A DNA stretch of 64,000 nt from a virus, in IMG/VR virus record IMGVR_UViG_3300026488_000011, positions 1 to 64,000 of that record; one strand, written 5' to 3'. This document shows, piece by piece, positions 3,957 through 55,711 of the stretch (the first letter of the stretch is position 1; each line of letters begins with the position of its first letter). The translations under genes were made by a program, and so were the position numbers. The notes beneath the pieces were generated by a model, which searched no databases, was not told where the DNA came from, and was given only the letters and a program-made list of their open reading frames with translations.

Positions 3957-4170
3957 TTTTTACTCCTTGTTCGTTATATTTTTCCCAGGGAAAGACACCT
4001 AAACCTCTGCGTGTGCCTATATAGATACCCAGACTAGGTTTCATACATCTACTAGTTTTACTAACCTCTTCGGACCATTTCTTAAATTTTTCCCTATCCA
4101 AAATTTCTATTATCTTATAAACATGCTTGTCTATATATTCTACTACCATAAAACAATTTTTTCTCTTCAT
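3943..4170 (-). CDS. Small hypothetical protein, 75 aa
   Basis: The frame is open further upstream, but that part runs over the terminator at 4222-4257 and into the neighbouring gene. The ATG at 4170 has a good GAAGGAG site and was chosen. The product is basic (MKRKNCFMVV at the N-terminus) with a glycine/arginine stretch IYIGTRRGLGVFPW. It is the first gene of a short operon and overlaps the next gene by 14 bases. Function unknown. Confidence 0.65.
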   Translation of the reverse strand: MKRKNCFMVVEYIDKHVYKIIEILDREKFKKWSEEVSKTSRCMKPSLGIYIGTRRGLGVFPWEKYNEQGVKNEYN

Positions 4171-5635: not shown

Positions 5636-5776
5636 TACTAATCCTTATTGATGATTTTCTATCATTAGATCCTTACACGTTACAGTAAGTATAATTTCCG
5701 TATAATGTTTTGCTGTTTAGAGTCTAATTCACAAAACTTTATTAGTAATAAATAATATTGAGTTCGTAAGAATAGT
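5636..5776. other. AT-rich spacer
   Basis: No ORF with a ribosome site is seen. It holds an AATATTATTTATTACTAAT stretch on the minus strand that could be a promoter for the 5635 gene, though it is weak. It precedes the structured RNA element. Confidence 0.5.
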
Positions 5777-6112
5777 GTTAAGTGCATATCTATATCCTCT
5801 CTTCGATTCTACACGAGTATGTGATAGATGATGTAGAGGTGCGATCACTACACTAGATAGGAATTGGCAGGGTCCTATCGACCTCGTCACTATTGCCTAT
5901 CCACTAGATGGTCTCCTATACTCTGCCTCTCTGAGGTGGGGTATAGGAGATCGGGTAGGTAACTCAGACCGTTAGCTAGCGGAAATCGGGGGGAGTAGAG
6001 GGGGGAGGATGACCTGCTGGTGGAGGGTGGGGCGGCGAGGAGCGTAGCGGCTCTAAAAATAAAAACCTTTTTCCTATTAGCTAACTGAACGAAGTGAGGT
6101 TACTCCGGAAAT
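5777..6112 (+). ncRNA. Structured RNA element, copy 1
   Basis: A GC-rich, G-run-rich non-coding stretch in an otherwise AT-rich genome, with a diverged second copy at 45403-45705. Stems seen: 5856-5862 with 5873-5879 (7 bp); 5896-5902 with 5953-5959 (7 bp); inside it 5912-5920 with 5942-5950 (9 bp) closing a 21-nt loop; 5969-5972 with 5979-5982; and 6082-6086 with 6098-6102 closing loop GAACGAAGTGA. Each stem is also formed in copy 2 with different bases, while loops are conserved. All wobble pairs are G-U only if read on the plus strand, so plus is the likely sense strand. Shared unpaired blocks include GTGCGATCACT and the G-rich GGGGGAGYAGAGGGGG. It lies between minus-strand genes and cannot be an mRNA leader for either in that orientation. 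The RNA class is not recognised. Confidence 0.75.
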
Positions 6113-6153
6113 ATAAAAAAGAAAAATAGAGAATAAAGAATGAGGTAGAGAAT

Positions 6154-45302: not shown

Positions 45303-45402
45303 TTAGTCCTTTATAGGTTCTATGCATTCTATAAACCATTGGTGATATTTGATAACCAAACTTTTTTAATCGGATTAAAATCTGTTGATCTTTAAATAAG
45401 AT

Positions 45403-45705
45403 GTTAGGGAACATATCAAAATCTCTCTATAGATATAGAAGAGTGCGATCACTGTTCTTAGTAGGCCTGGACAACCTACGACCGTGTCATCTTAGCTATC
45501 GCTCTCGGTGATCCTGCCTCTCTGAGGTGGGGTCATCGAGGGTGGTAGTAGAGAAACCATTAGCTGGTGGGAATCACGGGGGAGCAGAGGGGGAGGTCTA
45601 TGTCCGGGTGGGGGCGGGTGTAGGGAAGGACAATACAATCCAATGTTTAACCGATTAGCAAAACTATTTGAACGAAGTGAGAATACTCTGTAAAGAGTAA
45701 ATAAG
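45403..45705 (+). ncRNA. Structured RNA element, copy 2
   Basis: Second, diverged copy of the element at 5777-6112, same orientation. Stems: 45461-45465 with 45475-45479; 45496-45500 with 45544-45548; inside it 45502-45511 with 45533-45542 (10 bp) closing a 21-nt loop of which 19 bases equal copy 1; 45557-45560 with 45567-45570; 45665-45669 with 45681-45685 closing loop GAACGAAGTGA. Stem sequences differ from copy 1 but pairing is kept. G runs at 45578-45582, 45589-45593, 45606-45608, 45610-45614, 45616-45618 and 45623-45625 could form a quadruplex. GTTA-G---CATATC precedes both copies. Plus strand is the inferred sense strand because wobbles are G-U only there. Confidence 0.75.
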
Positions 45706-50096: not shown

Positions 50097-50116
50097 ATAC
50101 GGATTAAGATCCGTAT
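50097..50116 (-). terminator. Terminator hairpin
   Basis: 8-bp perfect stem containing the stop codon of the 605-residue gene. Confidence 0.65.
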
Positions 50117-51921
50117 CCGAACATTCCCATTCCTGGCATTGCGAATTGTGGTCCTTGTGGTCCTGCGTATCCAAAGTTAACTCCACCAACTTTAGCTCCA
50201 GCGTAAGCTGCTGCAACTGCTTGAAGATTACTGTAGCTAGTAAACTCTATCTTACCAATATCTGCTCTTGGATTTAATCCAGCTGCGATTGCTGCTTCTA
50301 CTAGTTCTTTATAGAATGCTCCGTTTAGAGTCACTCTCACTGCCTTACCTGTAATTACCGCGTTTGGAATCAATGCGTTTATTACTTCTAATTTTAGTAG
50401 GTAAGGATCTTTCCCAGTGATGTGCGCAGGAGCATTACTATCGATCCATTTAAGCACTAAATCCATATCTTTAGCATGTTCTAAGACATATGCTAAATCC
50501 ACTTCTCGGATGTCTCTCTTAGTACCAGTGTTATCGATCCATTCTCCTACTGGCACCACAATAGTAGAGGCAGCTACTTGTCTGTTAGCGAATGCGTGTC
50601 CAGTTAGTGATTCAGCGATAGCAATAATTTCTTCATTAGCAGCTTCTGCTGCTCCTGGTACTGCTAGTGCTGCAAATGGTGCTTCGATACCGAAATTCGG
50701 ACCATAATATTCTACTTCCACAGCGAATGCTTTTTCAAACTCCACTGCGTTAGCTAAGAAATTGAGTACTTCATTTTCGTTCAATTTACCGTCTTTGAGT
50801 TTGATCTTTTTACCGAATTGCGCATTAGGTGTTTTAGGATCAACTACTGTTTTAGTTAACACATTGAGTACACCTAAATCTCTAGGCACGTTCATTAATA
50901 GTTGATAATGCATGCTTTGGTTGTTAAAGATGCTGCTATTAATAATGTTTAATAGTATCATTTCAGCTGTAGGTCTGAACGCATGAAATTCGTTCAATAT
51001 TACTAGAGGCATTATCATTGTTCTAGGAGGCTGCCCAGGTATATTAGCAATCATATCTGGCAAATACTCTAGATAACCTACCTCAGTAGTCTGAGGTTTT
51101 CTTATATTTCCTCCTATTAAACTTTGCGCTCTATTAAATACTGCTACTAGATCTAGTTCAAAATCAGTTCTAATAGGTTTACCGACAGCGTTTTGAAATA
51201 CACCCATATTGAATGTTGTGTCTATAACTAATTGTCCTTGTTTTTGGGCAATTTTACTAGTATATGTTCTCAAGTCCAGGTAATTTAAGACACTGTTTTC
51301 GATGTAAAGTTTTGCTAGATTGTTGTTTAGCGCTACTACTGTAGCCGGAATACCAACTTGTTCTGGATCTTGATCGTGTGGCACTACCAGACCTTCAGTA
51401 GGTCTTAAGTTGTCTTCAGTCGTGCCATACGCATCCATCAACACTCTCTTAATAAGGGATTGTAGATATGTATCTGCAAATGTGTCAGCTGCTACATAAA
51501 TTAAACTTGATCTTTTGAATTTAATCTCTTCTAGTATATGTGCGATTTGTACAGGTTTTCTACCTGTCGCTTCTAACAGTATTACGTGGAAGTATACTTT
51601 AGGGCTATTGCTAGCCTGTGTTGCTACTATAACATAACTGTACGGTAGATCTTGGAACTGTGTATCTTTGTCTAACTTAAATAATCTAGTTCTGATCTCT
51701 ACCCCTTTTTTAACTAGAGGTTCTTTAATAGCCGGAACTTCTTTAGCTTTTTCTATAAATTTGTTTAAATATTCGCTACCTGTTCCTGGTACTAGGAACA
51801 TTGTTGCTCCGAAATCATCATCGTCGAAGCTTGCAGTTTGATTAACGTTTTGTTGTTGTTGCTCTTGTGCAACTTTTTCAGTTGTTTGTGTTGTCATTTT
51901 GCTTTCATCTCTTAAAGCCAT
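50104..51921 (-). CDS. Abundant phage structural or shell protein, 605 aa
   Basis: The frame is open up to 52035, but the ATG at 51921 has a strong AAAAGGAG and the upstream part is an untranslated hairpin leader. The protein is Ala, Val, Pro and Gly-rich with few rare codons, typical of the most abundant phage proteins. A disordered N-terminus (TTEKVAQEQQQQNVNQTASF) precedes the folded core (about 50-560: VYFHVILLEATGRKPVQIAH, LVAVFNRAQSLIGGNIRKP). The C-terminal tail GPQGPQFAMPGMGMFGYGS is flexible. Two promoter motifs (TATATTAC at 52151 and TATATTAT at 52040) and the long structured leader suggest very high expression. It could be the major capsid or sheath protein; size and flexible ends also fit a nuclear-shell protein such as chimallin. 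I cannot decide from sequence alone. Confidence 0.6.
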   Translation of the reverse strand: MALRDESKMTTQTTEKVAQEQQQQNVNQTASFDDDDFGATMFLVPGTGSEYLNKFIEKAKEVPAIKEPLVKKGVEIRTRLFKLDKDTQFQDLPYSYVIVATQASNSPKVYFHVILLEATGRKPVQIAHILEEIKFKRSSLIYVAADTFADTYLQSLIKRVLMDAYGTTEDNLRPTEGLVVPHDQDPEQVGIPATVVALNNNLAKLYIENSVLNYLDLRTYTSKIAQKQGQLVIDTTFNMGVFQNAVGKPIRTDFELDLVAVFNRAQSLIGGNIRKPQTTEVGYLEYLPDMIANIPGQPPRTMIMPLVILNEFHAFRPTAEMILLNIINSSIFNNQSMHYQLLMNVPRDLGVLNVLTKTVVDPKTPNAQFGKKIKLKDGKLNENEVLNFLANAVEFEKAFAVEVEYYGPNFGIEAPFAALAVPGAAEAANEEIIAIAESLTGHAFANRQVAASTIVVPVGEWIDNTGTKRDIREVDLAYVLEHAKDMDLVLKWIDSNAPAHITGKDPYLLKLEVINALIPNAVITGKAVRVTLNGAFYKELVEAAIAAGLNPRADIGKIEFTSYSNLQAVAAAYAGAKVGGVNFGYAGPQGPQFAMPGMGMFGYGS

Positions 51922-52150
51922 TTTCTTCTCCTTTTGGTTTTGTTTTTTTTTAAAGGCACTGATCAGTGTCTTATGACACGCAACTGTGTTAGACGCCAAC
52001 TCTTCTACACTTTGCTCAGAGGTAGTTCTGAGCAACTTAATAATATATTGGTTTAATTATTTTGGAATTAAACCAATAGTACCGCTAGGCGGTTCTTCTA
52101 TAGGTCTGAGTCCGAAGACCCAGACCTGATACCTGTTTGGTATCACATAA
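51922..52150 (-). promoter_or_regulatory. Multi-hairpin 5' leader
   Basis: The untranslated leader before ATG 51921 contains successive perfect hairpins: 52128-52144 (6 bp), 52102-52127 (7+3 bp with UUCG tetraloop on the minus strand), 52081-52093 (5 bp), 52047-52077 (12 bp), 52012-52035 (9 bp) and 51966-51979 (5 bp), plus a 12-base palindrome at 51957-51968 that competes with the last. A stretch of A residues and the ribosome site follow. Likely roles are mRNA stabilisation, control of translation or generation of a small RNA. Confidence 0.7.
52040..52047 (-). promoter_or_regulatory. Promoter-like motif TATATTAT inside the leader
   Basis: Minus-strand TATATTATTAAG, one mismatch from TATATTAC, about 120 bases before ATG 51921; overlaps the foot of the 12-bp hairpin. 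Confidence 0.4.
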
Positions 52151-52158
52151 GTAATATA
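52151..52158 (-). promoter_or_regulatory. Promoter motif TATATTAC
   Basis: Perfect minus-strand TATATTAC directly before the hairpin leader of the 605-residue protein; transcription from here would include all hairpins. Confidence 0.6.
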
Positions 52159-54978: not shown

Positions 54979-55002
54979 TAGACCTAACATTCTTTAGGTC
55001 TA
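54979..55002 (-). terminator. Terminator hairpin
   Basis: 9-bp perfect stem containing the stop region of the Gln/Pro-rich gene. Confidence 0.7.
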
Positions 55003-55637
55003 ACGATAAACTCATACGTCTTTGTTAGGTCATCGAATACAATTTCTAGGATCTCTGTTTCCTCGTCATAGAGTGGAGGGAACTCATTGCCTGGTTTTGG
55101 TTTATAATTGCTTCTATCTAATTGAGTTGTTTGCGGTCGTGTTTGCTGTCTTGGTTGTGCAGGCTGTTGAGGCTGTTGATTTTGATATCCCATAGGTGGC
55201 GGCGCAGCAGTAGTTGCACCAGGTCCCATATTCTGGTAAGCAGGTTGCCCTATCGCCACCCCACCTGTACCAACATTAGGTCTCTGATATCCCATTGGTG
55301 CCGGTGCGATGGTAGGGCCCATAGGATTCATGGTTGGAGGCAAACCTCCTCCTTGAAACATTGGTCTAGGGCTTTGACCTGGATACATTGGTTGTTGGTA
55401 TCCTTGTTGTTGTGGATATTGAGGTGGATACATGGGTTGCTGATATCCTTGCTGGGGCATCGGTTGTCCCATAGGCGGCGGCTGCATTCCCATATTTACA
55501 GGCTGTCCCGCTGGCTGCTGATAACTTTGTTGTCTATATTGCTGATACGCTCCTGGTTTTGGACCAGGTTGTTGATTAGGGTATTGACCTGGTTGGCCAT
55601 AGCCAGGTTGTCCCCATTGATTTTGGTTGTTCCACAT
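54984..55637 (-). CDS. Gln/Pro/Gly-rich low-complexity protein
   Basis: 217 residues, of which the first about 175 are a disordered, repetitive chain of Gln, Pro, Gly, Tyr and Met (units such as QQGYQQPMYP, MGQPMPQQG, APMGYQ). A short ordered C-terminal domain (ETEILEIVFDDLTKTYEFIV) follows. The same repeat unit ends the 421-residue protein at 14675-15940. Such sequence may form condensates or flexible linkers; it is also seen in tail or portal-associated linkers. ATG 55637 behind AAAGGAG. Lies between the portal-like gene and structural genes, so a head or packaging role is plausible. Confidence 0.7.
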   Translation of the reverse strand: MWNNQNQWGQPGYGQPGQYPNQQPGPKPGAYQQYRQQSYQQPAGQPVNMGMQPPPMGQPMPQQGYQQPMYPPQYPQQQGYQQPMYPGQSPRPMFQGGGLPPTMNPMGPTIAPAPMGYQRPNVGTGGVAIGQPAYQNMGPGATTAAPPPMGYQNQQPQQPAQPRQQTRPQTTQLDRSNYKPKPGNEFPPLYDEETEILEIVFDDLTKTYEFIVRPKEC

Positions 55638-55675
55638 ATTTTCTCCTTTGTTTAGTTTATCTTTTCCGGAAAAGA

Positions 55676-55695
55676 TGCTAGGATGGTTCCTAGCA
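55676..55695 (-). terminator. Terminator hairpin
   Basis: 8-bp perfect stem with TGGT loop between 55637 and 55712. Confidence 0.7.
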
Positions 55696-55711
55696 CCTAA
55701 ATAATGTATAT

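Follow-up and report, generated by a model that had tools for sequence, protein, structure and literature searches.

The stretch of DNA analysed here (the window; 64,000 nucleotides, positions 1 to 64,000 of the IMG/VR virus record IMGVR_UViG_3300026488_000011) carries on its minus strand a gene (50104–51921) encoding a 605-aa protein, preceded by a leader of about 220 nt made up of consecutive hairpins that lies between the sequence TATATTAC (52158–52151) and the start codon (51921). Judged from its matches, this is a divergent form of chimallin (ChmA), from which nucleus-forming jumbo phages build their nuclear shell: it matches the profile of PHROG 4795, "nuclear shell protein" (E 4.1e-25), its best match among solved structures is chimallin 7sqt (E 1.5e-4), and it matches the Pfam family Chimallin_Phikzvirus with an E value of 4.9e-5 at 22.1 bits, under the 27-bit cut-off. 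The protein family is present in ten reference phages. Companion genes of nucleus-forming phages were also found, namely those for multisubunit RNA polymerase subunits, a phage DNA polymerase of the type found in this group and PhuZ (341 aa, E 7e-70), which together with the chimallin match indicates a chimallivirus-like (Chimalliviridae-like) jumbo phage. Since a tblastn search with ChmA gave no match in 50,697 phage records, this phage appears to be far from the named ones, and scanning viral and genome contigs for peptides of this ChmA revealed no close relatives of the protein. The closest relative of the phage, and its only close one, is L035, with a ChmA that is 59% identical. In phage 201phi2-1, chimallin is among the most abundant early proteins (PMC12908238).

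In the direction of transcription (52158 to 51922, minus strand), the leader consists of TATATTAC, the stems, an A-rich stretch and the ribosome binding site AAAAGGAG (51928–51935), followed by the ATG at 51921. In the minimum free energy (MFE) fold, hairpin 1 (52128–52144; 6 bp, arms GATACC and GGTATC, loop AAACA) starts at the predicted +1 (G52144), with pairing probabilities of at least 0.99 for positions +1 to +6, and is followed by hairpin 2 (52102–52127; 11 bp with a UUCG loop), hairpin 3 (52081–52093; 5 bp) and hairpin 4 (52046–52078; 13 bp), the 3' arm of which adjoins an inner promoter-like core. Further downstream, folding gave hairpin 5 (52012–52035; 9 bp, the inner 7 bp of which begin at the predicted inner +1, G52033) and hairpin 6 (51966–51979; 5 bp, GTGTC and GACAC around ATAA), the latter overlapping the left arm of a palindrome, CACTGATCAGTG, as an alternative pairing. 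The ribosome binding site was predicted to be partly paired with CCUUU. The preliminary description had listed at least six perfect hairpins, including a 12-bp stem. The hairpins are real and beyond chance, but the UUCG stem contains one G.U pair, the long stem has 13 bp rather than 12, and the last "hairpin" consists of two competing elements, hairpin 6 and the palindrome.

The MFE of the leader is -74.7 kcal/mol, versus -47.2 +/- 4.4 kcal/mol for dinucleotide shuffles (z -6.3; none of 200 as low). For a 240-nt segment placed at the leader the z score is -7.2, random segments of the genome having a mean of -1.0 (sd 1.7), and 3 perfect looped stems of at least 6 bp were observed in 240 nt versus 0.33 expected. 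The leader also ranked among the strongest folds when every longer intergenic region in the 185-kb record of the phage was scanned. Two other intergenic regions of the window, 5756–6115 and 45303–45662, also fold strongly (about -90 kcal/mol) on the plus strand, opposite to their flanking genes, and are candidates for non-coding RNAs; no tRNA was found in the window.

The outer core TATATTAC (52151–52158, minus strand) is of the same kind as TATATTACDWHDGTG of 201phi2-1 (PMC7058600) and has the traits of phiKZ-type early promoters: i) a TATATTAY core, ii) an AT-rich upstream tract (T8, 52170–52163), iii) a TG before +1, in the form N5-TG downstream of the core, and iv) reuse ahead of further genes in this genome. 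On its own, TATATTAC is about as frequent in the window as expected (11 occurrences versus 9.8). A promoter profile of 36 nt was derived from this genome, with the outer chmA site (52158) as one of its three seeds. The profile yielded about twenty sites, almost all on the minus strand and mostly 20–65 nt ahead of genes; the outer chmA site ranks tenth. It lies 237 nt ahead of the ATG, compared with 20–65 nt for nearly all other top sites, so the contrast drawn earlier between the short leaders of other genes and the long one of this gene is right. The inner core, TATATTAT-N5-TG (52040–52047, minus strand), is weak by the same profile (rank 164) and is the positional counterpart of an inner promoter in L035. 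A start at the inner site only, which would leave most of the hairpins untranscribed, is disfavoured, since the genome-derived profile rates the outer site as the better promoter, and a transcript from the inner site would likewise open with a +1 hairpin. In core and in spacing to +1, the outer chmA site resembles phiKZ-type early promoters (PMC7058600, PMC7598289), but the other early leaders examined are mostly 20–60 nt long and have no palindrome.

Since early promoters of phiKZ-type phages are centred near -10 (PMC7598289), +1 was predicted to be the G seven bases after TATATTAY. When the distance from this position to the start of a stem was plotted for 40 chmA promoter sites of the phage group, it peaked exactly at 0, and a stem of at least 6 bp at the predicted +1 was present at 62% of these sites, versus 12% after shuffling (maximum of 100 shuffle sets, 27.5%), the prediction of +1 resting on the published -10 centring and on this structural peak itself. 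Stems of at least 5 bp were found there in 80% of the chmA leaders versus 31% of shuffled ones. In contrast, 31 other early-type promoters had a stem of at least 6 bp at +1 in 23% of cases and showed no peak at that position. At all four tandem promoters (two in the window and two in L035) the predicted +1 G is also the first base of a stem. Given this predicted start, the stem lies at or within a few nucleotides of +1, as do the stabilising 5' stem-loops of mRNAs (reviewed in PMC7509114).

The comparison of homologous leaders was based on 80 loci of relatives reached via their DNA polymerase, with chmA found in about 60 sequences; the chmA leaders were reduced to 55 distinct ones, later 58, and as these are phylogenetically related, counts over the leader set do not represent independent events. 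The 200-nt chmA leaders had a mean z score of -2.95, versus -0.31 inside the chmA coding region, and a mean of -3.15 versus -1.52 when compared with other genes of the same loci having an upstream gap of at least 180 nt (Mann-Whitney p 1e-7). Looped inverted repeats upstream of position -65 were 3-fold more frequent than in shuffled leaders. In one clade (4 sequences), compensatory changes were found in 4 of 23 pairs, with 11 of 500 shuffles doing as well, so the support from covariation is thin. The leaders of the window and L035 are 52% identical and cannot be aligned, but L035 shows, in unrelated sequence, the same anatomy of promoter, three hairpins, inner promoter, hairpin, palindrome and ribosome binding site. 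It is the architecture, not the sequence, that is kept in relatives, and since a design of one hairpin opening at the first base and a perfect palindrome shortly upstream of the ribosome binding site recurs before chmA while the sequence changes almost completely, the shape of the leader rather than its letters appears to have been kept by selection across the phage group. Many relatives have, further upstream, a second motif that by eye resembles the phiKZ middle promoter AAanTTACc (PMC4666361); hairpins in that region would therefore belong to a middle transcript.

The most unusual part of the leader is the palindrome CACTGATCAGTG (51957–51968, strand-neutral), a perfect 12-bp element with no loop that ends 35 nt before the ATG; neither it nor the identity of the protein had been given in the preliminary description. 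A palindrome of at least 12 bp is present in 44 of the 55 chmA leaders, mostly ending about 24–35 nt before the ATG, and one of at least 10 bp in 49 of 55, versus 7.3 expected. In the same loci, 36 of 45 chmA genes have such a palindrome versus 33 of 1112 other genes (3%), and over all genes of whole genomes it was found before 8 of 187 in this phage, 13 of 332 in phiKZ and 10 of 428 in 201phi2-1. Palindromes of 18, 20 and 10 bp occupy the same place in three chmA loci that were identified later. The distance to the ATG has a median of 37 nt (sd 7.8). The palindromes comprise 31 distinct sequences, with centres including GCGC, TGCA, TCGA, ACGT and GATC.

We examined several simple roles for this element. 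A mark of a regulon was ruled out, since the 12-mer occurs once per genome in both the window phage and phiKZ. A feature general to abundant or early genes was also ruled out: phuZ has a palindrome in 4 of 53 cases, all in one clade, and the other early leaders examined lack it. An ordinary hairpin is unlikely, because other loop lengths are not enriched at this place; between -65 and -12, 45 loop-less inverted repeats were found in the chmA leaders versus 1.3 expected, and those with loops of 1–10 nt were at chance level (10 versus about 8 expected). In the four members of the clade with phuZ palindromes (L063, L064, L092 and L105), the core TTGCGCAA upstream of phuZ is the same as that of the clade's chmA palindrome.

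Most of the palindromes are weak as hairpins (0 to -6 kcal/mol, most 0 to -3), and perfect symmetry would be needless for a stabilising hairpin, so stabilisation does not explain them. As homoduplexes they are strong (-12 to -29 kcal/mol). The elements lack a loop, and neither in the flanking positions nor at single mismatches is G.U preferred over A.C; these observations may point to a dyad in the DNA or to two RNAs pairing with each other. The element might be a DNA operator for a dimeric protein, either a chmA-specific repressor or chimallin itself, that lies downstream of the early start and tunes chmA transcription, the hairpins being secondary. Such an operator would account for symmetry that includes the centre, for the lack of G.U preference, for the enrichment of symmetric mismatched extensions (p < 0.002) and for the tight distance to the early promoter, which is 41–54 nt in most phages. 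We nevertheless regard it as rather doubtful, since a single copy per genome leaves no regulon, another leader of the same genome (55637) has a different palindrome at the same position, and the +1 hairpins are left unexplained. Moreover, the window and L035 keep the distance to the ATG (41 and 35 nt) and not the usual one to the promoter (85 and 102 nt), which favours action at the RNA level.

Alternatively, the palindrome may be a self-complementary mRNA element through which chmA mRNAs pair, as an extended duplex or by loop-loop contacts, for co-localisation, export or translational control. Perfect self-complementarity in a freely changing sequence and the contrast between hairpin and homoduplex energies would be expected of such an element, and its uniqueness in the genomes checked would make self-recognition specific. 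RNA homodimers mediated by palindromes are known elsewhere (PMC7357161), such as that formed through the HIV-1 DIS with its palindromic kissing loops, which is likewise a short palindrome in a 5' leader; however, the chmA palindrome spans a full 12–20 nt and has no defined loop, and its dimerisation is putative. With no G.U tolerance detected and no precedent found in a phage mRNA, we consider mRNA pairing of this kind unlikely. Broader than either proposal is the idea of a sequence-free regulatory signal, in which a drifting but always perfectly self-complementary element would act by self-recognition, whether between mRNAs or as a private dimeric operator, coupled to the +1 hairpin; we put this forward tentatively, as having somewhat less than an even chance of being correct. 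If true, the self-recognition element would be a new kind of sequence-free signal tied to the building of the phage nucleus.

A role in transcription attenuation, or as a series of terminators governing read-through from the outer promoter, is very unlikely for the leader. Its stems are stable and two of them, hairpin 6 and the palindrome, are mutually exclusive, with a similar three-arm overlap in L035, but the leader sequence contains no GC-rich stem followed by a U-run of the kind that marks an intrinsic terminator or attenuator, hairpins 1–3 and 5 all being read without a following U-run. No leader peptide was seen, and terminators would not be expected at +1. In L035 (about 4050–4100) the arms AAATCT, AGATTT and AAATCT could form two exclusive stems adjoining the ribosome binding site, a possible switch, of which positions 51979–51957 of the window show a weaker version.

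The leader had also been read, as one of two options, as a separately processed RNA. A stable small RNA of this origin is most improbable, although a UTR-derived RNA is known in phiKZ from another gene, p40 (PMC8545117). A search of Rfam 15 gave no match above the gathering score in the window, no conserved processing signal was seen, the conserved features keep their positions relative to +1 and the ribosome binding site, and the sequence is not conserved even at 59% ChmA identity, which is unusual for a trans-acting RNA. The other option, an mRNA-stabilising leader of a highly abundant protein, fits better, chimallin being abundant and a stem lying at the predicted +1 of both tandem promoters.

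We therefore favour, as the probable explanation, a regulatory leader of the chimallin gene that protects the 5' end and acts close to the ribosome binding site of a massively made early protein. Early in infection, the virion RNA polymerase would mainly use the outer TATATTAC promoter, with weak initiation at the inner one, and in each transcript base +1 would already be part of a stem-loop, leaving no unpaired 5' end. This stem would probably deny entry to host decay enzymes that depend on the 5' end, giving a longer-lived mRNA for a shell protein needed in bulk, and the further hairpins would keep the remaining leader in a folded state upstream of the A-rich region of the ribosome binding site. 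As the +1 stem has the geometry of 5'-end protection, by analogy its most likely role is to stabilise the mRNA so that the shell protein can be made in large amounts. The private self-complementary element about 37 nt before the ATG would add another layer of control. The simplest view is that it works as RNA, either by folding into a hairpin that is acted on close to the ribosome binding site or by pairing one chmA mRNA with another.

The E. coli ompA mRNA has a stem at its very 5' end, upstream of the ribosome binding site of a very abundant protein. The chmA leader is similar in having a stem at the predicted 5' end, upstream of the ribosome binding site of an abundant protein, but differs in its tandem promoter-plus-hairpin modules (in the window and L035), its further hairpins and its loop-less palindrome, and in that a whole virus group retains its geometry but not its sequence; its stabilising effect is inferred. 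The autogenous operators of T4 genes 32 and 43, a pseudoknot 67 nt and a hairpin about 40 nt before the start codon (PMC3014915), lie at a similar distance before the ribosome binding site and likewise precede genes for abundant early DNA-associated phage proteins. However, the loop sequence of the operator is common to T4 and RB69, whereas the chmA element keeps self-complementarity only, and binding of ChmA to its own mRNA would be hypothetical.

Structured leaders and +1 stabilisers are already known. In the literature searched (largely open-access journal papers), we found no account of chmA leaders, palindromes or 5' UTRs, of a chmA leader kept throughout the group as geometry only, with a private palindrome before the shell gene, nor of a +1 stem and a loop-less palindrome recurring with unrelated sequence, and the accessible parts of two recent reviews do not describe the amount of chimallin being set at the mRNA level. 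Chimallin is central to the phage nucleus. Both the +1 hairpin and the palindrome offer testable handles on chmA mRNA in phages that laboratories already use, such as Goslar and phiKZ, and the leader architecture makes it easy to recognise early leaders of the chmA type in newly sequenced genomes.

A chmA-like mini-leader is present elsewhere in the window (55637–55710, minus strand), before a gene (54984–55637) for a 217-aa P/Q/G-rich protein with no PHROG match. It contains an TACATTAT promoter, a +1 hairpin (GCTAGG..CCTAGC), the palindrome ATCTTTTCCGGAAAAGAT and a ribosome binding site, and the homologous gene in L035 retains a palindrome (ATCTTTCCGGAAAGAT). Palindromes that include a Shine-Dalgarno word were seen before small genes at 106448 in phiKZ (L133; CCCTCCACTTAAGTGGAGGG) and at 77659 in 201phi2-1 (L145; GTCCTCCCCTAGGGGAGGAC). 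In G000 (L116), positions 90035–90514 contain several long hairpins on both strands, with arms of up to about 25 bp and z scores down to -11, located in a 1.2-kb divergent intergenic region that is possibly a replication origin or another cis site.
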